Source: an uncultured Eubacteriales bacterium (GTDB lineage Bacteria; Bacillota; Clostridia; Peptostreptococcales; Anaerovoracaceae). Taken from it: a stretch of DNA of 64,000 nucleotides. Position 1 is the first letter of the stretch, and each line of letters begins with the position of its first letter. Shown one piece after another: positions 1,049 to 29,488 of this stretch. The notes beneath the pieces were generated by a model. The model did no database searches. It was not told the origin of the DNA and saw only the letters and a list, made by a program, of their open reading frames with translations. Both the position numbers and the translations under genes were made by a program. The DNA lies in NCBI GenBank assembly GCA_902801255.1, contig CADCHO010000002.1, forward strand, positions 41,475-105,474, written 5' to 3'.

Positions 1049-1237
1049 ATGAAAGAAAACGACAAAAAATGTATAATAAAAAATGGCGGGCCATGGGAGC
1101 GGCCGGCATCGACCAGGCCTAAAATGCCGCGGGCACAAAGGGCTAAGCAGTTCGCTCCTTTTGACGCGCTGACCGGTCTGTCTGAAAGACTCAGGCAGGC
1201 TGAAGAAGAACATGAGAGGGAGCTTCAACGCAAATGA
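1049..1237 (+). CDS. YolD-like small protein, partner of the Y-family polymerase
   Basis: A 62-residue basic protein with the core RAKQFAPFDALTGLSE. This is the conserved block of the small YolD-like proteins that sit directly after UmuC-type polymerases in Firmicutes, where they are proposed to act like UmuD. The frame can be extended to a GTG at 1031. The ATG at 1049 is preferred because it is an ATG and the extra residues add no family match, but no strong ribosome site distinguishes them. The stop codon overlaps the start of the next gene by four bases (ATGA), so translation is probably coupled. The function is inferred from family and context only. Confidence 0.75.
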   Translation: MKENDKKCIIKNGGPWERPASTRPKMPRAQRAKQFAPFDALTGLSERLRQAEEEHERELQRK

Positions 1238-2454
1238 TAAAGGGAGTACACAATTACTCTGAGATAGGTAGACTCAACAAGGTGCTGCTTCACCGCATAG
1301 GCACAGAGGTTGACGGACTTGTTCCTGACAATTTTGCAAGGCTTCTGTTTGATGACATACCATATCTGAAGGTAGCACAGCAGGAGCATGACAGATTTGC
1401 CGAGATACTGAAGAAGAATGGCGTTGAGGTAGTATACTATGTAGATGAGGTGGCGAAGGCACTCGAAAGACCGGACATAAAAGACCGCTTCATCAGAGAG
1501 ATGCTCGATCAGACCCGCTTTTCGTCGCGTGGAGTAAAAGAAGCCGTTTACGCGTATCTTATTGTTCTGAATCCGCGTCAGCTCGTCGAGAAAGTGATCG
1601 CGGGCATACGAAAAACCGAACTCACTGATTACAGATCAAGGACCCTCGCTGAAAAGATCGATGAGGCGTATCCGTTCTACATGGATCCTATGCCTAACAT
1701 GTATTTCACGCGTGATCAGGGAGCCTGCATCGGCAATGGCATAAGCATACACCACATGAGTACGGCGACCAGAAGAAGAGAGAGCCTGCTGCTCAGATAC
1801 ATGTATGAATTCAACAGCGATTTTGCTCCTGCCGGGACAGAGAAATGGTACGATTATGACGATCCGTACAGTCTTGAGGGAGGAGACATACTTGTTCTCA
1901 GCAAGTACATTGTGGCTGTAGGCCTTTCCGAGAGAACGACAGCTGCAGGCATCGAAACATTGGCCAGGAACCTGCTTACCGGCTCGGATTTTAAAAAGGT
2001 GCTGGTGTTCAACATCCCAAAGAAGAGAGCGTTCATGCACCTGGATACAGTATTTACGATGGTGGACTACGACAAATTCTCGATCCACCCTGAAATAGAA
2101 GGTCCGCTCCAGCTCTACGAGCTCAGTCTCGGAGCAGGCGGAGACATACACTTAGATTCAATGACTGACGACCTTGCCTCCATTCTGGCAGGCGAGCTCG
2201 GCCTTCCGACCGTGAAGCTCATACGCTGCGGAGGAGACGACGCCATGGCAGCACAGAGAGAGCAGTGGAATGACGGATCCAACACTCTCTGCATTGCGCC
2301 GGGCAAGGTGATCACATACGAAAGAAACTACGTTACAAACGATCTGCTTGACAGAAACGGCATAGAAGTGCTGACGATGCCAAGTTCGGAGCTTTCCCGG
2401 GGAAGGGGCGGCCCAAGATGCATGTCATGCCCGGTCAACAGAGATGACTTATAG
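1234..2454 (+). CDS. arcA: Arginine deiminase
   Basis: Hydrolyses L-arginine to L-citrulline and ammonia, the first step of the cytosolic arginine deiminase pathway. At 406 residues it has the usual family length. Visible signatures are FTRDQGACIGNG, HLDTVFTMVD with the catalytic histidine, the GGDD block, and the C-terminal CMSCP in which Cys396 matches the nucleophilic cysteine of known arginine deiminases. The residues before it read PRC rather than the usual GHC, a mild variation. It overlaps the preceding small gene by four bases and is followed after nine bases, with a GGAGG site, by ornithine carbamoyltransferase. No carbamate kinase or arginine/ornithine antiporter is nearby, so energy recovery by the classical pathway is not evident here. 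Confidence 0.96.
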   Translation: MIKGVHNYSEIGRLNKVLLHRIGTEVDGLVPDNFARLLFDDIPYLKVAQQEHDRFAEILKKNGVEVVYYVDEVAKALERPDIKDRFIREMLDQTRFSSRGVKEAVYAYLIVLNPRQLVEKVIAGIRKTELTDYRSRTLAEKIDEAYPFYMDPMPNMYFTRDQGACIGNGISIHHMSTATRRRESLLLRYMYEFNSDFAPAGTEKWYDYDDPYSLEGGDILVLSKYIVAVGLSERTTAAGIETLARNLLTGSDFKKVLVFNIPKKRAFMHLDTVFTMVDYDKFSIHPEIEGPLQLYELSLGAGGDIHLDSMTDDLASILAGELGLPTVKLIRCGGDDAMAAQREQWNDGSNTLCIAPGKVITYERNYVTNDLLDRNGIEVLTMPSSELSRGRGGPRCMSCPVNRDDL

Positions 2455-2463
2455 GAGGGGAAA

Positions 2464-3459
2464 ATGGGAGTTAACCTAAAAGGAAGAAGTTTTCTGACAC
2501 TGATGGATTTTACACCTGCAGAAATCAGATATCTGCTCGATCTTGCGCACGATCTTAAGGCAAAAAAGCGCCTTGGAATAAAAGGAAATTCGCTTGAAGG
2601 GAAAAATATAGTTCTGCTGTTTGAAAAGACATCGACAAGAACAAGATGCTCATTTGAGGTCGCAGCAATGGATGAGGGAGCCGGAGTAACGTTCCTCGAC
2701 AGCAAGAGCTCACAGATGGGCAAGAAGGAGAGCATTGCCGACACCGCTAAGGTGCTCGGACGCATATTTGACGGAATAGAATACAGAGGTTACGAGCAGT
2801 CTGTAGTTGAGGAGCTTGCTGCCGAATCAGGAGTGCCGGTATGGAACGGACTAACCGACATCGATCATCCTACACAGATACTCGCAGATCTTCTTACGAT
2901 AGAAGAGCATATTGCGAAGCCGCTCAACAAGGTCAAGGTGGTATTCGTCGGCGACGTCAGAAACAACATGTCTTATGCATGGATGTACGGATGCGCAAAG
3001 ATGGGCATGGATTTTGTCGCTTACGGACCGGATGAGCTCTGTGAAGGAGTTGATCCTGATGTACTTGCGCGCGCAAATGCAGTCGCCGCAGAGACAGGAG
3101 CTACTATCACGGTGACGAGCGATGATGCATCGCTGAAGGGTGCAGATGTAATTTATACAGACATCTGGGCATCGATGGGTGAAGAGGATCAGATCCCTGA
3201 AAGAGTAAGACTGCTGACTCCGTTCAAGGTTACGGAAGAACTTGTGGCAAAGACCGAAAATCCTGAGTATATATTCATGCACTGCCTGCCATCGTTCCAC
3301 GACTTCAAGACTACGATGGCTGCGGAGCAGCTGAAACTCGGCTACGATATCAGAGAGGTAACGGATGAAGTCTTCTCGGGCAGGAACTCGGTAGTATTCG
3401 ATGAAGCCGAAAACAGGCTCCATACGATAAAGGCGGTCGTTGTTGCGACGCTCGCATAA
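2464..3459 (+). CDS. argF: Ornithine carbamoyltransferase
   Basis: Interconverts citrulline plus phosphate with ornithine plus carbamoyl phosphate. The 331-residue protein has the carbamoyl-phosphate loop STRTR (residues 57-61), the HPTQ motif, the ornithine loop SMGEEDQ and HCLPSFHD with Cys274. The usual form is HCLPAFHD, so there is one conservative change. Sequence alone cannot separate anabolic from catabolic enzymes, but its place directly after arginine deiminase argues for citrulline phosphorolysis, the ArcB role. A GGAGG site precedes the ATG. The following gene starts 34 bases after the stop. The three carbamoyl-phosphate enzymes of this operon suggest its product feeds aspartate carbamoyltransferase. 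Confidence 0.95.
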   Translation: MGVNLKGRSFLTLMDFTPAEIRYLLDLAHDLKAKKRLGIKGNSLEGKNIVLLFEKTSTRTRCSFEVAAMDEGAGVTFLDSKSSQMGKKESIADTAKVLGRIFDGIEYRGYEQSVVEELAAESGVPVWNGLTDIDHPTQILADLLTIEEHIAKPLNKVKVVFVGDVRNNMSYAWMYGCAKMGMDFVAYGPDELCEGVDPDVLARANAVAAETGATITVTSDDASLKGADVIYTDIWASMGEEDQIPERVRLLTPFKVTEELVAKTENPEYIFMHCLPSFHDFKTTMAAEQLKLGYDIREVTDEVFSGRNSVVFDEAENRLHTIKAVVVATLA

Positions 3460-3493
3460 TAATATACAAATCATCAAGGGAGAAAAAAGGAAT

Positions 3494-4606
3494 ATGGAAT
3501 TCAAAATACCTGAATACAAGGCACCGGATTTCACCTCACCTGAATTGGTGAACGCTCCTGACTGCAGGTTCGAAGAAGCAGACAGAGACGGAGTTGCACC
3601 GGAGTACTTCCACAGCACATCAATGTTTCCTGAGTATTTTAAGGTGAGCGGAGAGTGGAAGCTCGCTGAGGAGAGCAGGATGGACTCGAGCGTGGTGCTC
3701 AGACCTGACGGCCGGCTCGACGTAGTTGAAAACCGCAACATCCGTAAAGGTGATCTGGTGGCGCTTGGAAGAAGTGAGAACGGACGCGAAGGCATATTTG
3801 TCCACACCAGGGGTTTTGAAGACGAAGAGACAGAACTCGAAGATCAGTTTGTGTTCCGTCAGGGCAGGAGCAGAGAAACCTCGTATGCCCGCGACTATGA
3901 CAGGCTCTTTGACCTGCTGAACTACGAGAAAGAGCATGGAAATATTGTCTGGGTGATGGGCCCGGCATTTGCATTCGACCATGATGCCAGGGCGTGCATG
4001 CAGGCAATGGTAGAGAACGGCTATGTAGATGCGCTGCTCGCCGGCAACGCGCTTGCTACGCATGATCTCGAGGGAGCCCTGCTCAACACGGCGCTCGGCC
4101 AGGACATCTATACACAGAAATCCCAGCCTAACGGCCACTACAACCATCTCGACGTCGACAACAAGATACGCAGGAGCGGCTCGATCCCGCAATTCATTGA
4201 AGATTACAATATCGATAACGGCATCATATACAGTTGTGTAAAGAATGACGTACCGATCATTCTCACAGGCTCTATCAGAGACGACGGCCCTATCCCGGAA
4301 GTAATTGCTGACGTATATGAGGGGCAGAACGTCATGAGACAGACTGTGAAGAAAGCGACCACTGTCATCTGCCTCGCAACGATGCTCCACACCATTGCAA
4401 CAGGCAACATGACACCATCGTTCAGAGTGCTTGAGGACGGCACGATCAGGCCGGTATTCCTTTATACGGTCGATGCTGACGAATTTGTCGTCAACAAACT
4501 TCTCGACAGAGGAAGCCTTGCGGCAACAACCATTGTTACAAATGTACAGGATTTCATCACGATCGTTGCCAACGGCCTCGGTCTTGAATGGAAGAGATAC
4601 TCGTAA
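3494..4606 (+). CDS. LOR/SDH-domain protein, probable ornithine cyclodeaminase (archaeal/cyanobacterial type)
   Basis: A 370-residue protein that matches the conserved LOR/SDH region (TIGR00300-like) by blocks such as NIVWVMGPAFAF, GYVDALLAGNALATHD and SIRDDGP. In archaea and in the C-terminal part of the cyanobacterial AgrE/ArgZ enzyme this domain converts ornithine to proline and ammonia. It is unrelated to the mu-crystallin type of ornithine cyclodeaminase. The open frame extends to 3440, but the ATG at 3494 has a proper GGGAG...AAGGA ribosome site, so that start is chosen. Its place after arginine deiminase and ornithine carbamoyltransferase fits disposal of ornithine as proline, which would pull citrulline phosphorolysis forward. 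The substrate assignment is inferred from family and context. Confidence 0.82.
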   Translation: MEFKIPEYKAPDFTSPELVNAPDCRFEEADRDGVAPEYFHSTSMFPEYFKVSGEWKLAEESRMDSSVVLRPDGRLDVVENRNIRKGDLVALGRSENGREGIFVHTRGFEDEETELEDQFVFRQGRSRETSYARDYDRLFDLLNYEKEHGNIVWVMGPAFAFDHDARACMQAMVENGYVDALLAGNALATHDLEGALLNTALGQDIYTQKSQPNGHYNHLDVDNKIRRSGSIPQFIEDYNIDNGIIYSCVKNDVPIILTGSIRDDGPIPEVIADVYEGQNVMRQTVKKATTVICLATMLHTIATGNMTPSFRVLEDGTIRPVFLYTVDADEFVVNKLLDRGSLAATTIVTNVQDFITIVANGLGLEWKRYS

Positions 4607-4626
4607 TAATACAGAAAGGGGACCAA

Positions 4627-5547
4627 ATGAGTGAAATAAAGCATCTTATCAACATCACCGATCTGAGCGTAGCAGACATCGAGCATCTGATGGAGACTGC
4701 TGATGACATCATCGCACATCCGGAAGCTTACTGGGATGCATGCGCTCACAAGAAGCTTGCGACACTGTTCTTTGAGCCGAGCACCAGAACAAGACTGTCC
4801 TTCACGGCTGCCATGATGGAGCTTGGCGGCAATGTGCTGGGTTTCGACCAGGCACAGTCGAGTTCCTCGGCGAAGGGCGAGACAGTATCTGACACCATCG
4901 TTATGGCAGGCTGCTATGCAGATATCATCGCGATGAGACACCCTAAAGAAGGCGCACCGGTCGTAGGTGCCGTGAAATCCAGGGTCCCTATCATCAACGC
5001 AGGAGACGGCGGGCACTTTCATCCTACGCAGACACTGACGGACCTCATGACGATCCACCGCAAGAAGGGCGAAATCGGCAACTTCACTGTCGGCCTCTGC
5101 GGAGACCTGAAGTACGGCAGAACTGTACACTCACTCATCGATGCGCTGCTGAGATATGAAGGCGTCAGGTACGTCATGATCGCTCCTGAGGAGCTGAGAC
5201 TGCCGGGATACGTCAGAGACAGACTCAACGAAGCGGGCGTAGAGTGGTGTGAAGTGGAGAGCCTTGAGGATGCGATCCCTGAGCTCGACATACTGTACAT
5301 GACGAGGATCCAGCAGGAGAGGTTCCCGAGCTGGGAAGATTACGAAAAACTCAAGGACAGCTTCATACTCACAAGAGCAATGCTGAACGCTGCAAAGGAA
5401 GACATGATAGTCATGCATCCGCTGCCGCGTGTCAACGAGATAGACGTGGATGTGGACGACGATCCGAGAGCGTGCTATTTCTACCAGGCGCTCATGGGCA
5501 AGTACATCCGCATGGCACTCATATTGTATCTGCTGGGCATTAAGTAG
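4627..5547 (+). CDS. pyrB: Aspartate carbamoyltransferase catalytic subunit
   Basis: Condenses carbamoyl phosphate and aspartate to carbamoyl aspartate, the committed step of pyrimidine synthesis. The 306-residue protein shows the STRTR loop (52-56), the SSSAKGE loop, HPTQTLTDL and HPLPRVNEID, all diagnostic of PyrB. The frame opens at 4588, inside the previous gene, but the ATG at 4627 has an AAAGGGGA ribosome site eight bases upstream and fits the family start. The pyrI gene follows after 12 bases, so this is the PyrB-PyrI holoenzyme type. It shares its operon with the carbamoyl-phosphate-producing ornithine carbamoyltransferase. Confidence 0.96.
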   Translation: MSEIKHLINITDLSVADIEHLMETADDIIAHPEAYWDACAHKKLATLFFEPSTRTRLSFTAAMMELGGNVLGFDQAQSSSSAKGETVSDTIVMAGCYADIIAMRHPKEGAPVVGAVKSRVPIINAGDGGHFHPTQTLTDLMTIHRKKGEIGNFTVGLCGDLKYGRTVHSLIDALLRYEGVRYVMIAPEELRLPGYVRDRLNEAGVEWCEVESLEDAIPELDILYMTRIQQERFPSWEDYEKLKDSFILTRAMLNAAKEDMIVMHPLPRVNEIDVDVDDDPRACYFYQALMGKYIRMALILYLLGIK

Positions 5548-5559
5548 AGGAGGTTTCAT

Positions 5560-5985
5560 ATGAACATAGACGGAATCAACACAGGATATGTACTGGATCA
5601 TATTAAGGCTGGCAAGGGCTTTGAGCTTTATCACCTCCTCGGACTCGACAAGGCGGACTGCACGGTAGCCATCATCCAGAGGGCGTCCAGCGAAAAGTAC
5701 GGAGCCAAGGACATAATCAAAATCGATGCCGATATTCCGATCGATTATGACCTGATCGGATACATCAGCCCGGATATAACGGTAAATATCGTAAAGGACC
5801 GCGAGCTTGTTAAAAAGTTCAAACCAAAACCGCCGACTATACTTACAAATGTGCTGGAATGCCGCAATCCAAGATGCATCACTTCTGTAGAAAGAGGCAT
5901 ACCGCAGAAGTTCAGACTTGTTGGCAATGAATCGAGGGATTACCGCTGCGTATACTGTGACACGCTGTATCGCGAAAACAAGTAA
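5560..5985 (+). CDS. pyrI: Aspartate carbamoyltransferase regulatory subunit
   Basis: A 141-residue regulatory chain that binds nucleotide effectors in its N-terminal domain and docks to PyrB through a C-terminal zinc domain. The zinc ligands are Cys101, Cys106, Cys130 and Cys133 (CX4C...CX2C), spaced as in other PyrI proteins. The allosteric half includes DHIKAGKGFELYHLL and KDIIKIDADI. A GAGGAGG site precedes the ATG. Its presence predicts feedback control by CTP or UTP. It closes the operon, with a palindromic hairpin seven bases after the stop. Confidence 0.95.
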   Translation: MNIDGINTGYVLDHIKAGKGFELYHLLGLDKADCTVAIIQRASSEKYGAKDIIKIDADIPIDYDLIGYISPDITVNIVKDRELVKKFKPKPPTILTNVLECRNPRCITSVERGIPQKFRLVGNESRDYRCVYCDTLYRENK

Positions 5986-5991
5986 AAATAC

Positions 5992-6021
5992 GGACTCCAT
6001 GGCAGTACCATGGAGTCCTTT
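5992..6021 (+). terminator. Hairpin after pyrI
   Basis: A perfect 11-bp stem, GGACTCCATGG and CCATGGAGTCC, with a five-base loop and only three T residues after it. It is a likely but weak terminator of the arcA-pyrI operon. Confidence 0.7.
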
Positions 6022-6808: not shown

Positions 6809-8194
6809 ATGGGTATAATTGCAGGATTCATGGTGCCGCATCCGCCTATGATCGTACCGGACATAGGCAGGGGAAGCGAAGCACAGGTGGCAGATACTGC
6901 CGCAGCCTATGAGAGAGTAGCGGACGAAATAGCTTCGCTCGCGCCGGAAACAATAATAATAACAAGTCCGCACTCGATAATGTACGCGGACTACTTTCAC
7001 ATTTCACCCGGCAAAAGCGCGAGCGGAAGCTTTGCCGGATTCAGGGCTCCGGGCGTCAGATTCAACGAGGAATACGATACCGAGCTCGTCAGAGAGATAT
7101 GCAGACTGGCCGATAAGGAAGATTTCCCTGCAGGCACACTGGGTGAGCGCGATAAGGAGCTCGATCACGGCACTATGGTGCCGCTCTGGTTCATAAGGAA
7201 CAGGTATAAGGGCGGTAAGATAGTGCGCATAGGCCTTTCAGGGCTTCCGCTGATAGACCACTACAGGTTCGGCATGATTATACGCGAGGCTGTTGAGAGC
7301 ACCGGGCGTAAAGCTGTGTTCGTGGCCAGCGGAGATCTATCACACAAACTGCAGGATTATGGTCCGTATGGATTTGTACCGGAGGGACCGGTGTACGATG
7401 AGCGTATCATGGACGTGATGGGGCGCGCCGCCTTCGGTGAGCTCCTTGACTTTGACAGTACTTTCTGTGACAAGGCTGCCGAATGCGGTCACCGTTCATT
7501 CGTTATAATGGGCGGCGCGTTTGACGGCACGGATGTAAGGGCAGAAAAACTGGTCCATCAGGACGTTACGGGAGTAGGTTACGGCATATGCACCTTCTAT
7601 CCTGAAGGTGCAGACAAAAGCAGGAACTTTCTGGAGCAGAAGATGACAGAGATCGAGAAGGAGCTGAAATCGAAGCGTGAGCAGTCCGACGAATATGTGA
7701 GGCTGGCGCGTGAAGCTGTTGAAGCATATGTACTCAGGAGAGAAGTCCTGAAAGTTCCGGCAAATCTCCCTGACGAGATGCTGTCTACTCAGGCCGGAGC
7801 ATTCGTATCGATACACGAGCACGGTGACCTGAGAGGATGCATCGGAACGATCGCTCCGACAAGAGACTGCGTAGCCGAAGAAATAATCGGCAATGCCATA
7901 AGCGCTTCAACGAGGGATCCGAGATTCCCGGCAATAACGCCTGATGAGCTCCCGTGGCTCGATATAAATGTGGACGTGCTTGGTGAACCTGAGGATATTG
8001 AATCCGAGGATGAACTCGATGTAAAGAGATACGGGGTCATAGTAAGCTGCGGACACAGGAGGGGACTGCTGCTCCCTGACCTCGACGGCATTGATACGCC
8101 GCGGCAGCAGGTGGAGATCGCGATGAAGAAAGGCGGCATCCACAGGTTCGAGAAATACAAACTGCAGAGATTCGAAGTAATAAGACATTATTGA
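6809..8194 (+). CDS. Memo-AMMECR1 fusion protein (AmmeMemoRadiSam system A+B)
   Basis: A 461-residue fusion. The N-terminal half (about 1-265) is a class III extradiol dioxygenase/Memo-like domain with PHPPMIVP, TSPHS, DHGTMVPL and SGDLSHKL supplying the histidines and acids of the metal site. The C-terminal part (about 285-461) is an AMMECR1 domain with FVSIHEHGDLRGCIG and STRDPRFPAIT. In many bacteria and archaea these are two separate proteins encoded beside a radical SAM enzyme; that enzyme gene starts two bases after this one ends. The biochemical function of the system is not established. An AGGAGG site precedes the ATG. Confidence 0.93.
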   Translation: MGIIAGFMVPHPPMIVPDIGRGSEAQVADTAAAYERVADEIASLAPETIIITSPHSIMYADYFHISPGKSASGSFAGFRAPGVRFNEEYDTELVREICRLADKEDFPAGTLGERDKELDHGTMVPLWFIRNRYKGGKIVRIGLSGLPLIDHYRFGMIIREAVESTGRKAVFVASGDLSHKLQDYGPYGFVPEGPVYDERIMDVMGRAAFGELLDFDSTFCDKAAECGHRSFVIMGGAFDGTDVRAEKLVHQDVTGVGYGICTFYPEGADKSRNFLEQKMTEIEKELKSKREQSDEYVRLAREAVEAYVLRREVLKVPANLPDEMLSTQAGAFVSIHEHGDLRGCIGTIAPTRDCVAEEIIGNAISASTRDPRFPAITPDELPWLDINVDVLGEPEDIESEDELDVKRYGVIVSCGHRRGLLLPDLDGIDTPRQQVEIAMKKGGIHRFEKYKLQRFEVIRHY

Positions 8195-8195
8195 T

Positions 8196-9056
8196 ATGGC
8201 TGTTTGTAAAGTATGCTTCAGACATTGCAATATTCCCGAAGGCGGGCTGGGCTTCTGTGGAGTCCGCACCTGCACTGACGGAGAGGTGACTGCCGCAAAC
8301 TACGGCAGGGTCACTTCGCTTGCCCTCGACCCTATAGAGAAGAAGCCTCTCGCAAGGTTTCACCCTGGTACGATGATACTTTCGGCGGGAAGCTATGGCT
8401 GCAACCTCAGATGTCCGTTCTGCCAGAACTATCAGATATCCTGGTCAGAGGAGGCGTACAGGTTCGCAGACAGGGCTGAATACATATCGCCTGAGGAAAT
8501 GGCGGGTATAGCGCTATCGTGCAGGGACAGAGGCAATATAGGCGTTGCCTTTACATACAACGAACCACTCATAGGGTACGAGTATATCCGGGACACCGCA
8601 AAACTTGTGCATAAGCAGGGAATGGTCAATGTGATCGTTACCAACGGTACGGCAGATCTGTATGTGCTAAGCGAACTCGTCCCATATATCGATGCTATGA
8701 ACATAGACCTGAAGGGTTTCACTGACCGCTATTATAATGAGGTGCTCGGAGGCGACCGCGCCATGACGATGGCTTTCATCGAAGAAGCCGCGAAGCACTG
8801 TCATGTGGAGCTTACCACACTGATCGTTCCGGGCGAGAATGACAGCGAGGACGAGATCCGCAGGATGACGGAATGGATTGCCGGTCTTAAGGACGCAGAT
8901 GGCAATACGATCGGTGAGGAGATCCCGCTGCACATCTCCAGATTCTTCCCGAGATTCCACATGACGGACAGGGATGCAACGAAAGTAAGGCTGGTTTACA
9001 GACTTGCTGATGTCGCCCGCGAAAGACTGAAATATGTGTATACAGGCAATTGCTAG
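8196..9056 (+). CDS. amrS: AmmeMemoRadiSam system radical SAM enzyme
   Basis: A 286-residue radical SAM protein. The cluster-binding motif CNLRCPFC has Cys69, Cys73 and Cys76, preceded by a cysteine-rich N-terminus (CKVCFRHC, GFCGVRTC) that may hold further metal. Features such as TYNEPLIGYEY and NIDLKGF match the family related to pyruvate-formate-lyase activating enzymes, in the AmmeMemoRadiSam branch. The ATG lies two bases after the stop of the Memo-AMMECR1 fusion, so the two are co-translated. The substrate is unknown; the likely partner is the fused upstream protein. Confidence 0.93.
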   Translation: MAVCKVCFRHCNIPEGGLGFCGVRTCTDGEVTAANYGRVTSLALDPIEKKPLARFHPGTMILSAGSYGCNLRCPFCQNYQISWSEEAYRFADRAEYISPEEMAGIALSCRDRGNIGVAFTYNEPLIGYEYIRDTAKLVHKQGMVNVIVTNGTADLYVLSELVPYIDAMNIDLKGFTDRYYNEVLGGDRAMTMAFIEEAAKHCHVELTTLIVPGENDSEDEIRRMTEWIAGLKDADGNTIGEEIPLHISRFFPRFHMTDRDATKVRLVYRLADVARERLKYVYTGNC

Positions 9057-11609: not shown

Positions 11610-13121
11610 CTATTTAATTACAGCTTTTCTTGCGGTTTTGATCGCCTTATCGGCGCAAACCAGTCTGCAAAGATGGCATCCTACGCATTTGCTGCCGATA
11701 AGTATTGGCTTGCGCATTTCTTCGTCAAATTTGATGGCCTGATGGCCGCCGTCCATGCACGATATATAGCATCTGCCGCATCCGCTGCACAGTTCATAAT
11801 CGAATACCGGGTACAGTATGGTATCTCTTTCGATGCTGTGATGATCGACTACTGTGCCTGCTGCACCGCCTATGAGATCCTTCACCGATGCTATGCCTTT
11901 GCACTTCATATAAATCTCAAGGCCTTCGATCAGATCATCGATGATCCTGTATCCGTACTGCATTACAGCTGTTGTTATCTGAAGACTTCCGGAACCGAGA
12001 AGCAGGAACTCAAGTGCATCGCGCCAGGTCTCTATTCCGCCCATTCCGCTTATGTGCATGTCGTTGAGCTCGCTGCATCTTGAGAGGTCTGAAATGAATC
12101 TGAGAGCTATCGGTTTTACCGCATTGCCCGAGTATCCGCCTATGATGGATTTGCCGCGGACAGCCGGCTCCGCTACAAGAGTATCGATATCGACACCTGT
12201 AATGGAATTTATTGTATTGATGGCTGCGATACCGTCAGCTCCTCCGCGCTTTGCTGCGAGCGCGATCGGCACCATGTCTGTGATATTCGGCGTGAGTTTT
12301 GCAAGGACAGGCAGTTTAGTTCCTTTCTTGGTAGCTCTTGTGAACCTTTCAACCAGCTCAGCTGACTGGCCTATCGTAACGCCCAGGTCATCAGCTTCCA
12401 TGTTCGGACATGAGAAGTTGCATTCGATCACCGATGCACCGGCTTTTTCACATTTAGCCGCAAGATCAGTCCACTCCTGCTCATTCTGACCCATGATCGA
12501 AGCAACGATCACCTTCGTAGGGAATTCCTGTCTGAGCTTTTCGAAAATCTGCATGTTCTCTTCAACACTGTGGTCGGAAAGCTGCTCTATATTCTTGAAT
12601 CCGCAGAAAGCGTTTGAATGATGCCTTATAGCAGAGAACCTTGGAGAAGTCTCGTGCTGAGGAAAGCTGCAGATGGTTTTGAAAGAAGCTCCTGCCCATC
12701 CTGCTTCAAAAGCACGTTTACACATGTCATAAGAGCTTGCAACTACCGACGATGACAGCAGGAAAGGGTTCTCCAGTTTTACTCCGCAGATATCAGTGGA
12801 CAGATCAACCTGCTCTATCCTGCTTACGGGAAGTAAACCGGCATTCTTTTTCACCTGCATCAGAACCTCATGGATTTCAACCGGAAGGCTCCTCTCTTTA
12901 AGCACACAGGCCTTTTCGCATGGAGCATTGCAGTATGTGCAGTCGCAAATCAGCTTATTGACTGCTCCGATATAATTACTGAAGTACAATGACTTGAGGA
13001 CATTACCTACATCAGCATGCTGCGGACAAGCCTTTGTACAAGGCGGATCAAGGCAGATCATACATTTGCTCACTTCAGATTTATCGAAAGTCGCTACAAA
13101 TGTTTCAGCGCTGTGTTCCAT
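11610..13121 (-). CDS. PreA-like dihydropyrimidine dehydrogenase / dihydroorotate dehydrogenase-family iron-sulfur flavoprotein
   Basis: A 503-residue protein in three parts. An N-terminal iron-sulfur region has Cys20, Cys23, Cys28 and Cys32 plus CDCTYCNAPCEKAC. A central FMN barrel of the dihydroorotate/dihydropyrimidine dehydrogenase type carries ECNFSCPN, where Cys matches the acid-base cysteine of DPD, and GMGGIE. A C-terminal two-cluster ferredoxin domain reads CSGCGRC and CVGCHLC. This resembles PreA with extra N-terminal cysteines. No PreT-like NAD(P)H/FAD partner is beside it, so electrons may come from ferredoxin or a distant subunit. The substrate could be uracil, thymine or a related heterocycle. 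A GGAGG site precedes the ATG. It is monocistronic and divergent from the SDR gene. Confidence 0.82.
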   Translation of the reverse strand: MEHSAETFVATFDKSEVSKCMICLDPPCTKACPQHADVGNVLKSLYFSNYIGAVNKLICDCTYCNAPCEKACVLKERSLPVEIHEVLMQVKKNAGLLPVSRIEQVDLSTDICGVKLENPFLLSSSVVASSYDMCKRAFEAGWAGASFKTICSFPQHETSPRFSAIRHHSNAFCGFKNIEQLSDHSVEENMQIFEKLRQEFPTKVIVASIMGQNEQEWTDLAAKCEKAGASVIECNFSCPNMEADDLGVTIGQSAELVERFTRATKKGTKLPVLAKLTPNITDMVPIALAAKRGGADGIAAINTINSITGVDIDTLVAEPAVRGKSIIGGYSGNAVKPIALRFISDLSRCSELNDMHISGMGGIETWRDALEFLLLGSGSLQITTAVMQYGYRIIDDLIEGLEIYMKCKGIASVKDLIGGAAGTVVDHHSIERDTILYPVFDYELCSGCGRCYISCMDGGHQAIKFDEEMRKPILIGSKCVGCHLCRLVCADKAIKTARKAVIK

Positions 13122-14112: not shown

Positions 14113-14919
14113 TCACATACAGTGTTTTTTCTCCATTATTTTGTCGATTGCGTGTATCAGCGAATACCTGAAACCGGTCTCTTCGAGAGCGCTGATGCCA
14201 ACGATCGTAGTTCCGCCCGGGGTGCAGATGGCATCCTTGAGTTCACCCGGATGCTTACCGCTTTCCATCATGTATTTAGCAGTGCCGCTGATCATCTGCG
14301 GCACTATTTTATATGCCTGGGCACGGCTCATGCCGTTTTTTACAAGACCGTCCGCCATGGCCTCAATGAACACATCTACGAAAGCAGGCGCACATCCCGC
14401 TCCGGTGCCGCCAAGCGACAGGAGTTCTGAGCTGAAATACTCGATCTTCGCGATCTGCCCGAACACGCCTTCAAAGAGCTCGAGCTGCTCAGGTGTAAGC
14501 GAATGCACGGACTCTGCAACTATGATGCCCTCGCCGATAGCGATCGGAGTGTTAGGGACGGTGCTGATATGATTGAATCCTTCGCCGAGATAACTGATGT
14601 AACGTTCATAATCGATCCCGGCTGCGATTGAGAACATAGGCTTGCCTTTCAGTGCACCGGCCGATGCCTTTACTACACCTTCGACCTGCTGAGGCAGTAC
14701 GGCTATCACGATGATGTCGCTAGCTGCCGCGACTGCTTCAGCACTTGCACATGCTTTGATGCCGCGCTTTTCACATGCTGCACGCAGCTTATCCATGTTT
14801 CTTGCGCAGGCATAGATGGACGAAGGCTCCACCACATTTTTGATAAGCAGGCCGTCGCAGATAGCACTTGCCATGCTCCCGAATCCGATAAATCCTACTT
14901 TTGCATTCCTGAAATCCAT
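14113..14919 (-). CDS. proC: Pyrroline-5-carboxylate reductase
   Basis: Reduces pyrroline-5-carboxylate to proline with NAD(P)H. It has the N-terminal GFIGFGSMASAI dinucleotide motif, IIVIAVLPQQ, MPNTP replaced by VPNTPIAIGEG, and a C-terminal LGGTGAGCAPAFVD and CTPGGTTI that match ProC. The frame can begin at a further ATG at 14931, but that start would overlap its own AAAGGA site, so the start at 14919 (268 residues, family-like length) is preferred. Together with the ornithine cyclodeaminase-type gene of the first operon it points to active proline formation. It sits alone on the minus strand. Confidence 0.92.
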   Translation of the reverse strand: MDFRNAKVGFIGFGSMASAICDGLLIKNVVEPSSIYACARNMDKLRAACEKRGIKACASAEAVAAASDIIVIAVLPQQVEGVVKASAGALKGKPMFSIAAGIDYERYISYLGEGFNHISTVPNTPIAIGEGIIVAESVHSLTPEQLELFEGVFGQIAKIEYFSSELLSLGGTGAGCAPAFVDVFIEAMADGLVKNGMSRAQAYKIVPQMISGTAKYMMESGKHPGELKDAICTPGGTTIVGISALEETGFRYSLIHAIDKIMEKKHCM

Positions 14920-15004
14920 AGTCACCACCATCCTTTCCGACAGTATCGTTATTCTATCACGAAAGACACATTGTTTTATATCATTATGGAAGCGATTCGC
15001 GTGC

Positions 15005-22286: not shown

Positions 22287-24377
22287 ATGAGCAGGGTACT
22301 GGATCGTTTCGGATCTATGGTATTCGATGACAAAGTAATGAGAGCGATGCTGCCAGAAGACGCATATCGCTCAATGCGAAATACTATCAACAGGGGAGAT
22401 CCTCTGAATCAGGAGATAGCAAATGCCGTTGCCCAGGCAATGAAGGACTGGGCAGTCGCAAACGGAGCTACTCACTTCACACATTGGTTCCAGCCTCTTA
22501 CCGGCATCACTGCTGAGAAGCACGACAGCTTCATCCAGTCGTCGCCGGACGGAAGAGTAATAATGGAATTCTCCGGCAAGGAGCTTATAAAAGGTGAGCC
22601 TGATGCATCATCTTTTCCTTCGGGAGGCCTCAGAGCCACATTCGAGGCGAGAGGCTATACAGCATGGGATCCTACGTCCTACGCTTTCATAAGGGACCGC
22701 ACACTATGCATACCGACTGCATTCTGTTCATACAGCGGAGAGGCAATGGATGAAAAGACCTCTCTTCTGAGATCGATGGATGCGCTTAATCATCAGGCGC
22801 TGAGAGTACTCCATCTTCTGGGCAATGACTCAGTAAAGAGAGTCCATGCTGTTGCGGGTGCCGAGCAGGAGTATTTTCTTGTTCCGCGTGATCTTTACGA
22901 CAAGAGGCCTGACCTCAGATTTACGGGAAGGACACTCTTCGGCGTCATGCCTCCGAAAGGGCAGGAACTCGACGACCACTATTTCGGGGCTATAAAGCCT
23001 GAGATAGCAAGATTCATGGAGGAGCTGAATGAAGAACTGTGGAAGCTCGGAGTGTTCGCAAAGACAGAACACAATGAGGTAGCTCCATCGCAGCACGAGC
23101 TTGCGTGCATATATACAAAAGTAAATGTTACTGTCGACCAGAACCAGCTGGTCATGGAGATGATCAAAAAGGTGGCGGAAAGGCATGGCTTCGTAGCTCT
23201 GCTTCATGAGAAGCCATATGACGGAGTGAATGGAAGCGGTAAGCATAACAACTGGTCTCTGTCTACGGACAAAGGAGATAACCTGCTTGCACCGGGAGAC
23301 ACTCCTCACGATAACGCACAGTTCCTGCTTTTCCTTTGCGCGGTCATCAAGGCAGTTGATGATTATCAGGATCTTCTGAGGATATCCGTCGCGTCTGCCG
23401 GCAACGACCACAGACTCGGCGCAAGCGAAGCGCCTCCGGCAGTGGTCTCCATATTCCTGGGTGATGAGCTTACAGCAGTCCTTGAGTCGATCGAGAAGGA
23501 CATTCCTTATGAAAACAGCGGTGAAGTGCTGATGAAACTCGGCACAGAAGTGATACCGGGATTCAGAAGGGATAACACCGACAGAAACCGTACTTCGCCT
23601 TTCGCGTTCACCGGTAACAAATTCGAGTTCAGAATGCCGGGAGCCATGAGCAGTCTGGCTTTTCCGAACGTGATTCTTAATAGTGCAGTGGCAGATGCGC
23701 TGGGATATTACGCGGACAGACTGGAAAAAGCCGAAAACTTTAGTGAGACCGTGTATTCCCTCATAAGAGAGACGGTTCACGATCATAAAAGGATAGTGTT
23801 CAACGGCAATGGATACGATGAGGAATGGGTCGTCGAAGCCGAAAGTAGAGGACTTTCAAACTACAGAACCACGCCTGACTGCGTGCCGCATCTGATGGAT
23901 GAAAAGAACGTTAATATGCTGACAGGACAGAAGGTCTTCAGCAAATCAGAGCTGGAATCCAGATCCGAGATAATACTTGAGACCTACTGCAAGACCATCT
24001 GCATTGAGGCAAGAACCATGAGGTCCATGGCAATCAAAAGGATAGCACCTGCAGTCGAGGAGTATACTGCAGAACTTTCAGCCAACATGAACGAAAAAAA
24101 GCGCGCCATGCCGGATCTGGAATGCAGGTTCGAAAAAGAGATCATCACAAAGCTTTCCGCTAAAACTGACATGATCTACAGCGATGTGCAGGACATGATC
24201 TGCGTGCTCAATACCCTGAGCGGTGATGATTATTTCAGGGATGCGCAGGTGATACGCGATGAACTGCTTCCGGCTATGAGAAAGCTCAGGGAAGACGGGG
24301 ATGCTGCGGAGATGCTCACGTCCAAGAAGTACTGGCCGCTTCCAAACTATGGTCTGCTTATGTTTGGGGAAAAGTAG
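22287..24377 (+). CDS. glnN: Glutamine synthetase type III
   Basis: A 696-residue enzyme that makes glutamine from glutamate, ammonia and ATP. The length is typical of the large GSIII class (GSI is about 450). Matching blocks include THWFQPLTG, AEQEYFL in the catalytic core, EVAPSQHELA, HEKPYDGVNGSGKHNNWS and NDHRLGASEAPPA. An AAAGGAGG site precedes the ATG, which sits after a long leader with the 65-bp repeat array. Three glutamine-consuming amidotransferase genes follow in the same direction with short gaps, so this looks like a nitrogen-assimilation transcription unit. Confidence 0.96.
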   Translation: MSRVLDRFGSMVFDDKVMRAMLPEDAYRSMRNTINRGDPLNQEIANAVAQAMKDWAVANGATHFTHWFQPLTGITAEKHDSFIQSSPDGRVIMEFSGKELIKGEPDASSFPSGGLRATFEARGYTAWDPTSYAFIRDRTLCIPTAFCSYSGEAMDEKTSLLRSMDALNHQALRVLHLLGNDSVKRVHAVAGAEQEYFLVPRDLYDKRPDLRFTGRTLFGVMPPKGQELDDHYFGAIKPEIARFMEELNEELWKLGVFAKTEHNEVAPSQHELACIYTKVNVTVDQNQLVMEMIKKVAERHGFVALLHEKPYDGVNGSGKHNNWSLSTDKGDNLLAPGDTPHDNAQFLLFLCAVIKAVDDYQDLLRISVASAGNDHRLGASEAPPAVVSIFLGDELTAVLESIEKDIPYENSGEVLMKLGTEVIPGFRRDNTDRNRTSPFAFTGNKFEFRMPGAMSSLAFPNVILNSAVADALGYYADRLEKAENFSETVYSLIRETVHDHKRIVFNGNGYDEEWVVEAESRGLSNYRTTPDCVPHLMDEKNVNMLTGQKVFSKSELESRSEIILETYCKTICIEARTMRSMAIKRIAPAVEEYTAELSANMNEKKRAMPDLECRFEKEIITKLSAKTDMIYSDVQDMICVLNTLSGDDYFRDAQVIRDELLPAMRKLREDGDAAEMLTSKKYWPLPNYGLLMFGEK

Positions 24378-24410
24378 GTTACAGACGTTCATCTGACAGG
24401 AGGTATATAT

Positions 24411-27616
<3,206 letters not shown>

Positions 27617-27619
27617 TAC

Positions 27620-29488
27620 ATGTGTGGAATAGTAGGATTTACCGGAAGGCAGCAGGCAGCGCCTATATTGCTTAACGGTCTGTCAAAACTGGAATACAGA
27701 GGATACGATTCTGCCGGGCTTGCCGTACGTGACGGGGAGTCGCTTGCCGAGGTCGTGAAAGCAACCGGCAAGCTGAAGAATCTGGCGGAAAAGATCGACA
27801 ACGGAAAAGCTCTTCCGGGAACATGCGGCATAGGACATACAAGATGGGCAACACACGGTGAGCCTTCTCAGAACAACGCGCATCCGCACGTCAGCGGCAA
27901 TGCTGCAGGTTCAGCATCGGGACCGGTCGAATCTGATGTTGTGGGAGTTCATAACGGCATAATTGAGAATTATGAGGAGCTGAAAGCAAAGCTCGTAAGC
28001 CAGGGCTATGCATTTTACAGCTCGACAGATACCGAAGTTGCCATAAAACTTGTCGATTATTATTACAAGAAATATAAGATCGGACCTATCGACGCCATCA
28101 ACAGAATGATGGTTCGTGTAAGAGGTTCATATGCCCTTGCTCTGATGTTCAAGGACTATCCGGGTGAGATCTACGCTGCCCGCAAGGACAGCCCGATGGT
28201 AATCGGAACAGCAGACGGAGAGTCGTTCCTCGCATCCGACGTACCGGCTCTTCTGAAGTATACCCGTGACATCTATTACATTGATGACCTTCACTCGGTA
28301 AGGATACTTCCGGGCGAACTTCACTTCTTCGACCTAAACGGCGATGAGGTCGAAGTGGAACAGAAGCATATCACATGGGATGCTGAAGCGGCTGAAAAGG
28401 GCGGATTTGAGCACTTCATGATCAAAGAGATCCATGAGCAGCCTAAAGCTATACGCGACACCCTCAGCAGCGTGATACATGACGGACAGATAGATCTTTC
28501 TGCTGCCGGACTCACGCCGGATGTGCTGTCAGGCATAAGCGGGATACACATCGTTGCATGCGGCTCTGCATGGCATGCCGGAATGGTGGGCAAGTATGTC
28601 ATAGAGGATCTCGCGGAGATCCCGGTAAGTACCGAGATCGCATCCGAATTCAGATATAAAAAGATACTTATCGACAAGGATGCACTTGTGATAATCATCT
28701 CACAGTCCGGAGAAACCGCTGACACGCTTGCAGCACTCAGAGCAGCTAAGGCAAAAGGCATCCGCACACTGGGTATCGTCAATGTAGTCGGCTCCACCAT
28801 AGCAAGAGAGGCTGACAACGTGCTGTACACACTGGCAGGCCCGGAGATCGCTGTAGCCACCACAAAGGCATACAGTGCGCAGCTGGCTGCGCTGTACACT
28901 CTGGCTGTTGCTCTTGGAGAAGCAAAGGGAAAGATCAGCGAACCGGATTACAAATACTATATCGAGGAACTGCAGGCTCTGCCTGACAAAATAGAAAAAG
29001 CTCTTGAAGCCAAGGAAAGGATACAGTGGTTCGCAGCTAAATACTCGAATGCGCGCGACGTGTTCTTCCTCGGAAGGGGACTTGATTATGCGATAAGCCT
29101 TGAGGGAAGCCTCAAGATGAAAGAGATCAGCTACATCCACAGCGAAGCATATGCAGCAGGAGAGCTGAAGCACGGGACGATCAGTCTGGTAGAGAACGGA
29201 ATCCTTGTAATCGGACTGCTGACACAGGGAGATCTGCTCGAGAAGACTGTCAGCAACATGGCAGAGTGCAAGGCTCGTGGAGCATACCTGCTTGGCGTGA
29301 CTACCGAAGGCAGATATAACGTGGAAGACTCGGTCAATTTCACAATTTACGTACCGAGGGCAGACGAACACTTCGTCGGAAGCCTGGCTGTAATACCTCT
29401 GCAGCTGCTCGGGTATTATATCAGCGTTGCAAAGGGCCTCGATGTGGACAAGCCGCGTAACCTCGCAAAATCAGTTACCGTTGAATAG
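27620..29488 (+). CDS. glmS: Glutamine-fructose-6-phosphate aminotransferase (isomerizing)
   Basis: A 622-residue enzyme making glucosamine-6-phosphate for peptidoglycan. The glutaminase domain begins MCGIVGF (Cys2 nucleophile), with GHTRWATHG and a slightly extended loop near residue 90-105. Two SIS isomerase domains follow (ACGSAWHAG, ISQSGETADTLAAL, and the C-terminal DKPRNLAKSVTVE). It starts three bases after the pyrG stop with its AAAAGGAG site inside pyrG. I see no space for a glmS ribozyme, because only three bases separate the genes. The transcription terminator appears to lie inside the convergent LysR gene. Confidence 0.97.
   Translation: MCGIVGFTGRQQAAPILLNGLSKLEYRGYDSAGLAVRDGESLAEVVKATGKLKNLAEKIDNGKALPGTCGIGHTRWATHGEPSQNNAHPHVSGNAAGSASGPVESDVVGVHNGIIENYEELKAKLVSQGYAFYSSTDTEVAIKLVDYYYKKYKIGPIDAINRMMVRVRGSYALALMFKDYPGEIYAARKDSPMVIGTADGESFLASDVPALLKYTRDIYYIDDLHSVRILPGELHFFDLNGDEVEVEQKHITWDAEAAEKGGFEHFMIKEIHEQPKAIRDTLSSVIHDGQIDLSAAGLTPDVLSGISGIHIVACGSAWHAGMVGKYVIEDLAEIPVSTEIASEFRYKKILIDKDALVIIISQSGETADTLAALRAAKAKGIRTLGIVNVVGSTIAREADNVLYTLAGPEIAVATTKAYSAQLAALYTLAVALGEAKGKISEPDYKYYIEELQALPDKIEKALEAKERIQWFAAKYSNARDVFFLGRGLDYAISLEGSLKMKEISYIHSEAYAAGELKHGTISLVENGILVIGLLTQGDLLEKTVSNMAECKARGAYLLGVTTEGRYNVEDSVNFTIYVPRADEHFVGSLAVIPLQLLGYYISVAKGLDVDKPRNLAKSVTVE

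Follow-up and report, generated by a model that had tools for sequence, protein, structure and literature searches.

Why should genes of arginine deimination and of pyrimidine synthesis stand in one row? In the usual view, the carbamoyl phosphate (CP) of the arginine deiminase (ADI) pathway is spent on making ATP, and pyrimidine synthesis draws on CP from carbamoyl-phosphate synthetase (CPS). In a 64,000-nucleotide stretch of DNA (hereafter the window) from an uncultured Eubacteriales bacterium of the family Anaerovoracaceae (contig CADCHO010000002.1), five intact genes follow one another on the plus strand between positions 1234 and 5985, in the order arcA, the gene of ornithine carbamoyltransferase (OTC), odc (a gene of the ornithine cyclodeaminase, ODC, family), pyrB and pyrI (Table 1). 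We propose that these genes form an operon at the metabolic branch point of ornithine and CP. Its core would be OTC, the only one found in the genome, and it could be used in both directions, carrying arginine to proline and pyrimidines if arginine is available; we give this reading a probability of about 0.5.

A preliminary description of the window had listed the five genes in this order on one strand with short gaps, and this proved accurate: all are open, the gaps measure 9, 34, 20 and 12 nt, and each gene scores above its curated NCBIfam cut-off. The pyrB score was computed from position 4624, one codon ahead of the ATG, and a second PyrI model, TIGR00240, stays below its cut-off on pyrI. 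Each protein also matches a solved structure over nearly its full length, namely the arginine deiminase 4bof for ArcA (E 7.1e-126), 3upd for OTC (E 1.2e-105), 1ml4 for PyrB (E 7.5e-86), 1pg5_B for PyrI (E 3.3e-24) and, as best match of the odc product, 3c2q, an 'uncharacterized conserved protein' (E 3.6e-56). arcA adjoins the OTC gene, as in the arginine deiminase operon, and the genes for the catalytic and regulatory subunits of aspartate carbamoyltransferase (ATCase) are adjacent and both open. In the window's own genome (G000), a metagenome-assembled genome (MAG) that is 78.5% complete, the OTC of the row is the only one found, the second profile match being pyrB, and pyrB, a single match, is the only ATCase found.

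A search with the odc protein over 196 genomes, our own included, gave 74 places in 69 genomes. The row genes were sought at E 1e-10 in 61 odc neighbourhoods (60 of the 73 places outside G000, and our own stretch). The order arcB-odc-pyrB-pyrI, arcB being the OTC gene, was met in 16 of them, 14 of which also have arcA; the arcA of G012, slightly below the cut-off (485.0 against 489.1), was counted as present from this examination. The other 45 neighbourhoods, some of them cut short by contig ends, contain none of arcA, arcB, pyrB and pyrI at this threshold. All 16 carriers belong to one genus, and the row stands behind a dinB-like gene in every one; eleven of the loci (L195-L205) belong to Mogibacterium sp. 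or to Clostridiales MAGs, and sheep, goat and horse are among the sources. When each row genome was compared with the window, dN/dS for the five genes was 0.013-0.088 (two comparisons were saturated and gave no ratio), with dS ranging from 0.5 to above 2 or saturation. The row genes are under purifying selection and are not chance neighbours.

The row looks to have been assembled from parts that are placed apart in relatives, whose loci were labelled by the best BLAST match to genes of G000, some of which had been named by eye. In three members of the genus (G007, G010 and G035), pyrB-pyrI lies between a cluster of ygeW, arcC, ygeY and a 191-aa gene, which we take to be xpt, and thiN-pyrC-carB-pyrK-pyrD-pyrF-pyrE (pyrI of G035 was lost in gene calling), and OTC genes 81-82% identical to that of the window adjoin argD. 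In G000, the ygeW/arcC/ygeY and pyrC-carB clusters are on separate contigs, neither with pyrBI; in G023, unlike in those three relatives, the 191-aa gene is not followed by pyrB. In G064, an OTC gene 84% identical adjoins an arcA 74% identical; odc lies on a different contig there, and pyrBI is at a distance of 36 kb. Gene calling is poor in G078, and its group of pyrB, carA, OTC, arcA and arcC, spread over some 18 kb, was not used. In a tree of 130 odc rows made by a quick method, with Shimodaira-Hasegawa-like approximate likelihood ratio test (SH-aLRT) support, the odc genes of the row form one clade (97) apart from the other odc genes of the genus, within a Lachnospiraceae/Oscillospiraceae-type group of 86 rows (99) that also holds the odc of L060, from another genus of the same family; support for the inner forks is lower (80-88, one 98). 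Among 69 loci outside the genus (within 80 kept of 169 odc loci), arcA or arcB occurs near odc in 11, with arcC as well in 5 of the 11, and pyrB or pyrI in none of the 69. The genes would thus have moved into the row. Neutral operon shuffling could have placed them behind a promoter near dinB and left them together by descent only, and the confinement of all 16 carriers to one genus and one odc clade, as well as the lack of any metabolic link of the dinB-like gene, would fit. Such a history is nevertheless very improbable, as the parts that came together share two metabolites, all 16 genomes keep the gaps short even with dS of about 1 or higher in most comparisons, and arc genes are linked to odc in other families too.

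The two metabolites are the products of OTC, ornithine and CP, which are the substrates of the next gene products in the row. With arginine present, ArcA would make citrulline, from which OTC would release ornithine and CP with phosphate; ODC would turn ornithine into proline, and PyrBI would condense CP with aspartate and so open pyrimidine synthesis proper. Citrulline phosphorolysis is described as unfavourable and as requiring coupling to carbamate kinase (PMC6022934). Removal of both products by the enzymes of the next, presumably co-transcribed, genes would pull it forward, and PyrBI together with ODC could replace the kinase in that coupling. In the archaeon Thermococcus kodakarensis, genetic work shows arginine to be a source of CP for pyrimidines; growth without pyrimidines suffers severely when arcE or arcB is disrupted, and disruption of arcC has little effect (PMC13260591). 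Given the chain of products and substrates and this precedent, we hold a flux from arginine to proline and pyrimidines to be likely in cells that have arginine at hand. If external arginine is lacking, and in relatives without arcA, OTC could work in the opposite sense and make citrulline for arginine synthesis, using CP that CarB provides, and ODC would supply proline and PyrBI pyrimidines.

Several observations weigh against the flux from arginine. A complete carB (C22:7801-10923, L041; 1386.6 bits) stands in G000 with pyrC, pyrK, pyrD, pyrF and pyrE, and CP therefore need not derive from arginine. Two relatives, G004 and G006, have no arcA between the 62-aa open reading frame (ORF) ahead of the row and arcB, and keep the other four genes; arginine deimination is thus unnecessary for row retention. 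Carbamate kinase (arcC) is over the cut-off elsewhere in 14 of the 16 row genomes, and a kinase in trans could take CP. ODC may not be the sole route to proline, since the window itself holds proC (14113-14931), and G017 carries proB besides the row. Finally, the genomes compared are MAGs, which makes absences soft. The preliminary description had read the locus as a path from arginine to pyrimidines; it draws support from a conserved, kinase-free row under purifying selection, from the sole OTC and ATCase found and from the rarity of proB, and it is weakened by carB, by arcC in trans and by the relatives without arcA.

The strongest rival is a purely anabolic reading, in which the CP users, OTC (as ArgF) and ATCase, would be grouped with proline synthesis for co-regulation, CP would come from CarB, ArcA would dispose of excess arginine, and no net flux would run from arginine to pyrimidines. 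The arg cluster of G000, in which argC, J, B, D, G and H were seen (argB and argG by family match, the others by eye), has no argF, and argG is present in 13 of the 16 row genomes, including G004 and G006 (in two pieces in G012). The retention of the other four genes in G004 and G006, the place of carB among pyrimidine genes in G000 and the presence of pyrD in all 16 row genomes favour this rival as well. In G006 a short stretch remains that we interpret as both termini of arcA, and a profile search of both genomes gave no arcA over the cut-off elsewhere, matches of 17-26 bits (in G004 and others) not being taken as arcA. A genome search, however, did not find argG in G002, G023 and G062 (79%, 97% and 76% complete), where arcA and OTC are kept, and a purely arginine-making OTC would therefore be of little use there. 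We regard the anabolic reading as possible but somewhat unlikely. OTC, odc and pyrBI are kept whichever half of the pathway is missing.

Could the cell make CP in another way? The preliminary description had supposed pyrimidine synthesis without CPS, which the carB of G000 contradicts, and had named an active carAB as evidence against its proposal; of the pair, carB was found and carA, by profile search, was not over the cut-off. CPS activity in G000 is likely, judging from the gene. The carB search covered the genus and other families of the order. It put carB over the cut-off in 12 of the 13 row genomes searched (G062, G066 and G068 lay outside the search) and not in G002. It again stands with pyrC, pyrK, pyrD and pyrF in G012 but apart from other pyr genes in G003 and G023. 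Among the 16 row genomes, carA over the cut-off is confined to G024, G033 and G066, which leaves 13 without it, and in G023 the carA profile has no match at E 0.001. In the genus as a whole, 30 of the 36 genomes searched have carB over the cut-off, 24 of these without carA over the cut-off (in G034 a contig end holds part of carA), compared with none of 19 genomes from other families of the order. Eight CarBs not beside carA, among them that of G035, where carA lies elsewhere in the genome, have changes in common at 18 of 313 columns, all without variation in eight carA-paired CarBs; a two-residue deletion makes up two of the 18. Solitary CarBs may use free ammonia. Among the matches listed, no bacterial CarB without CarA appeared by title or abstract start in the open-licence PMC literature. 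In G023, carB adjoins a GMP synthase (L281:11616-12587, 323 aa) that lacks the glutaminase part, matching the profile over 196-512, and a gene that resembles IMP dehydrogenase by eye.

One might go further and suppose that the CPS of the genus, without its glutaminase subunit, is poor or needs high ammonia, so that in the row species, above all in G023, G062 and G002, which show no argG, arginine would be the main source of CP for pyrimidines, with PyrBI replacing carbamate kinase as the pull. This we consider rather doubtful. The idea that loss of carA drove the formation of the row is weakened, as carA is missing in many row-less members of the genus and occurs together with the row in G024, G033 and G066.

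The preliminary description had also noted the absence of carbamate kinase, which holds for the row and fails for the genome: no kinase gene lies in the stretches examined of the 16 row genomes, and the genome search found arcC outside the row. An ordinary energy-yielding ADI pathway could thus be at work, with CP converted to ATP by the kinase elsewhere and pyrBI a mere passenger. Such a pathway would suit the distant arcC of most row genomes and the arcC seen in 5 of the 11 related arc-odc clusters. We nevertheless judge it quite unlikely, for the arcC of G000 adjoins ygeW, near ygeY, and not the arc genes, arcC is not over the cut-off in G017 and is a contig-end piece only in G002, and pyrBI stayed in the row over a dS of 0.5 to above 2. 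At L042:6901-16972, ygeY, carbamate kinase and ygeW occur with hydantoinase-like and xanthine-dehydrogenase-like genes, named by eye, in what is presumably a purine degradation cluster.

On the proline side, proB is over the cut-off in only one of the 16 row genomes, the G017 mentioned above, and in 4 of 47 genomes of the genus; since it is not over the cut-off in the other 15, an ornithine route to proline makes sense. Over 99 genomes, proB is missing in 37 of 43 with odc and in 25 of 56 without, counts that are not corrected for kinship. The odc family, NF052526, is called 'putative NPN-dependent ornithine cyclodeaminase' and is thus named as a putative nickel-pincer-nucleotide enzyme in NCBIfam. 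The marker of nickel-pincer biosynthesis, larC, is present in 16 of 16 row genomes, and in G008 (L072:5067-8092) odc is followed by larB and larC, an order hinting that the cyclodeaminase may depend on the nickel pincer. A strict link between the two was not shown: 8 of the 43 odc genomes, three of them 98-100% complete, have no larC over the cut-off, and the Fisher test gave p values of 0.047 over the 99 genomes, 0.21 within the genus and 1.0 outside it. Searches of the open-licence PMC literature gave nothing relevant on a nickel-pincer ornithine cyclodeaminase.

Upstream of arcA lie the dinB-like gene and then the 62-aa ORF, presumably YolD-like from its motif, the frame of which is also open in G004 and G006. 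Within it, a TATAAT that may serve the row as a -10 element is unchanged in all 16 genomes aligned; paired with ATGAAA at 1049, it scores 10 of 12 in a consensus scan, and the promoter scan of the region gave 5 matches against a chance mean of 6.2, so not above chance. A terminator scan likewise gave 7 against 5.0 by chance, not clearly above it. The stem-loop after pyrI is likely to mark the end of the row; a hairpin similar by eye follows pyrI in 11 of the 16 row genomes and a different one in G068, and none was seen in the 70 nt after pyrI of G002, G003, G023 and G062.

Table 1. Features of the arcA-pyrI row and its flanks in the window.
Feature	Position	Strand	Remarks
62-aa ORF	1049-1237	+	4-nt overlap with arcA start (ATGA); no family call
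TATAAT, candidate -10 element for the row	1072-1077	+	within the 62-aa ORF
arcA, arginine deiminase, 406 aa	1234-2454	+	TIGR01078, 497.7 bits (cut-off 489.1)
arcB/argF, ornithine carbamoyltransferase, 331 aa	2464-3459	+	TIGR00658, 382.7 (cut-off 280.85)
odc, LOR/SDH-type ornithine cyclodeaminase family, 370 aa	3494-4606	+	NF052526, 616.3 (cut-off 440)
pyrB, aspartate carbamoyltransferase catalytic subunit, 306 aa	4627-5547	+	TIGR00670, 338.6 (cut-off 236.95)
pyrI, aspartate carbamoyltransferase regulatory subunit, 141 aa	5560-5985	+	NF002063, 177 (cut-off 171)
12-pair stem-loop after pyrI	5992-6018		terminator-like on the minus strand only; weak T-run on the plus strand

Elsewhere in the window, a fusion of LigB/Memo-like and AMMECR1 (AmmeMemoRadiSam A) parts is followed by the radical SAM enzyme of that system (6809-9056). 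A dihydropyrimidine dehydrogenase PreA-like protein of 503 aa is encoded on the minus strand 5.6 kb from the row (11610-13121), and positions 22287-29488 hold glutamine synthetase III, asparagine synthase and GlmS, named by eye, and a confirmed CTP synthase.

How far does this arrangement differ from known systems? As with the arcABC genes of the ADI pathway, ornithine and CP would arise from arginine through ArcA and OTC, but the row has no carbamate kinase, which lies elsewhere in the genome, and PyrBI and ODC would take the products. The nearest clusters, of Lachnospiraceae, Oscillospiraceae and kin (L208, L211, L214, L215, L216, L218 and L225), have arcA-arcB-(arcC) beside an odc 76-81% identical; they differ in lacking pyrB and pyrI near odc, and their arcA and arcB are only 42-65% and 58-60% identical. 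The odc product also aligns with the C-terminal parts of the cyanobacterial proteins Alr4995 (6lrh, E 1.5e-48) and Sll1336 (6juy, E 1.9e-47), which we take to be the AgrE/ArgZ arginine dihydrolase/ornithine cyclodeaminase; in the row it is a separate protein, and the first steps would fall to ArcA and OTC instead of a fused dihydrolase. Pyrimidine loci with a related PyrB (66-78% identical) and PyrI exist in the same genus (G005, G007, G010 and G035), whereas in G000 pyrBI is in the arc row and not at the pyr locus. The T. kodakarensis route shares arginine as CP source, and ornithine is a proline precursor in the authors' scheme; it runs through ArcE and ArcB in an archaeon that has no CPS, whereas the row is bacterial, has ArcA and coexists with carB (PMC13260591). 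Among the matches listed, titles and abstract starts in the open-licence PMC literature gave no bacterial arc-pyrBI operon, and titles gave nothing on arginine use in Mogibacterium. An archaeon thus already provides an example of the chemistry, and none of the parts is unusual; it is the gene arrangement that was not met in the literature searched.

A conserved bacterial operon joining arginine deimination to pyrimidine synthesis would be the gene-level counterpart of the Thermococcus route reported in 2026, here in a genus where the large subunit of CPS often stands without the small one. The alternative losses of arcA and argG among its carriers would be natural experiments on a single OTC serving both directions.

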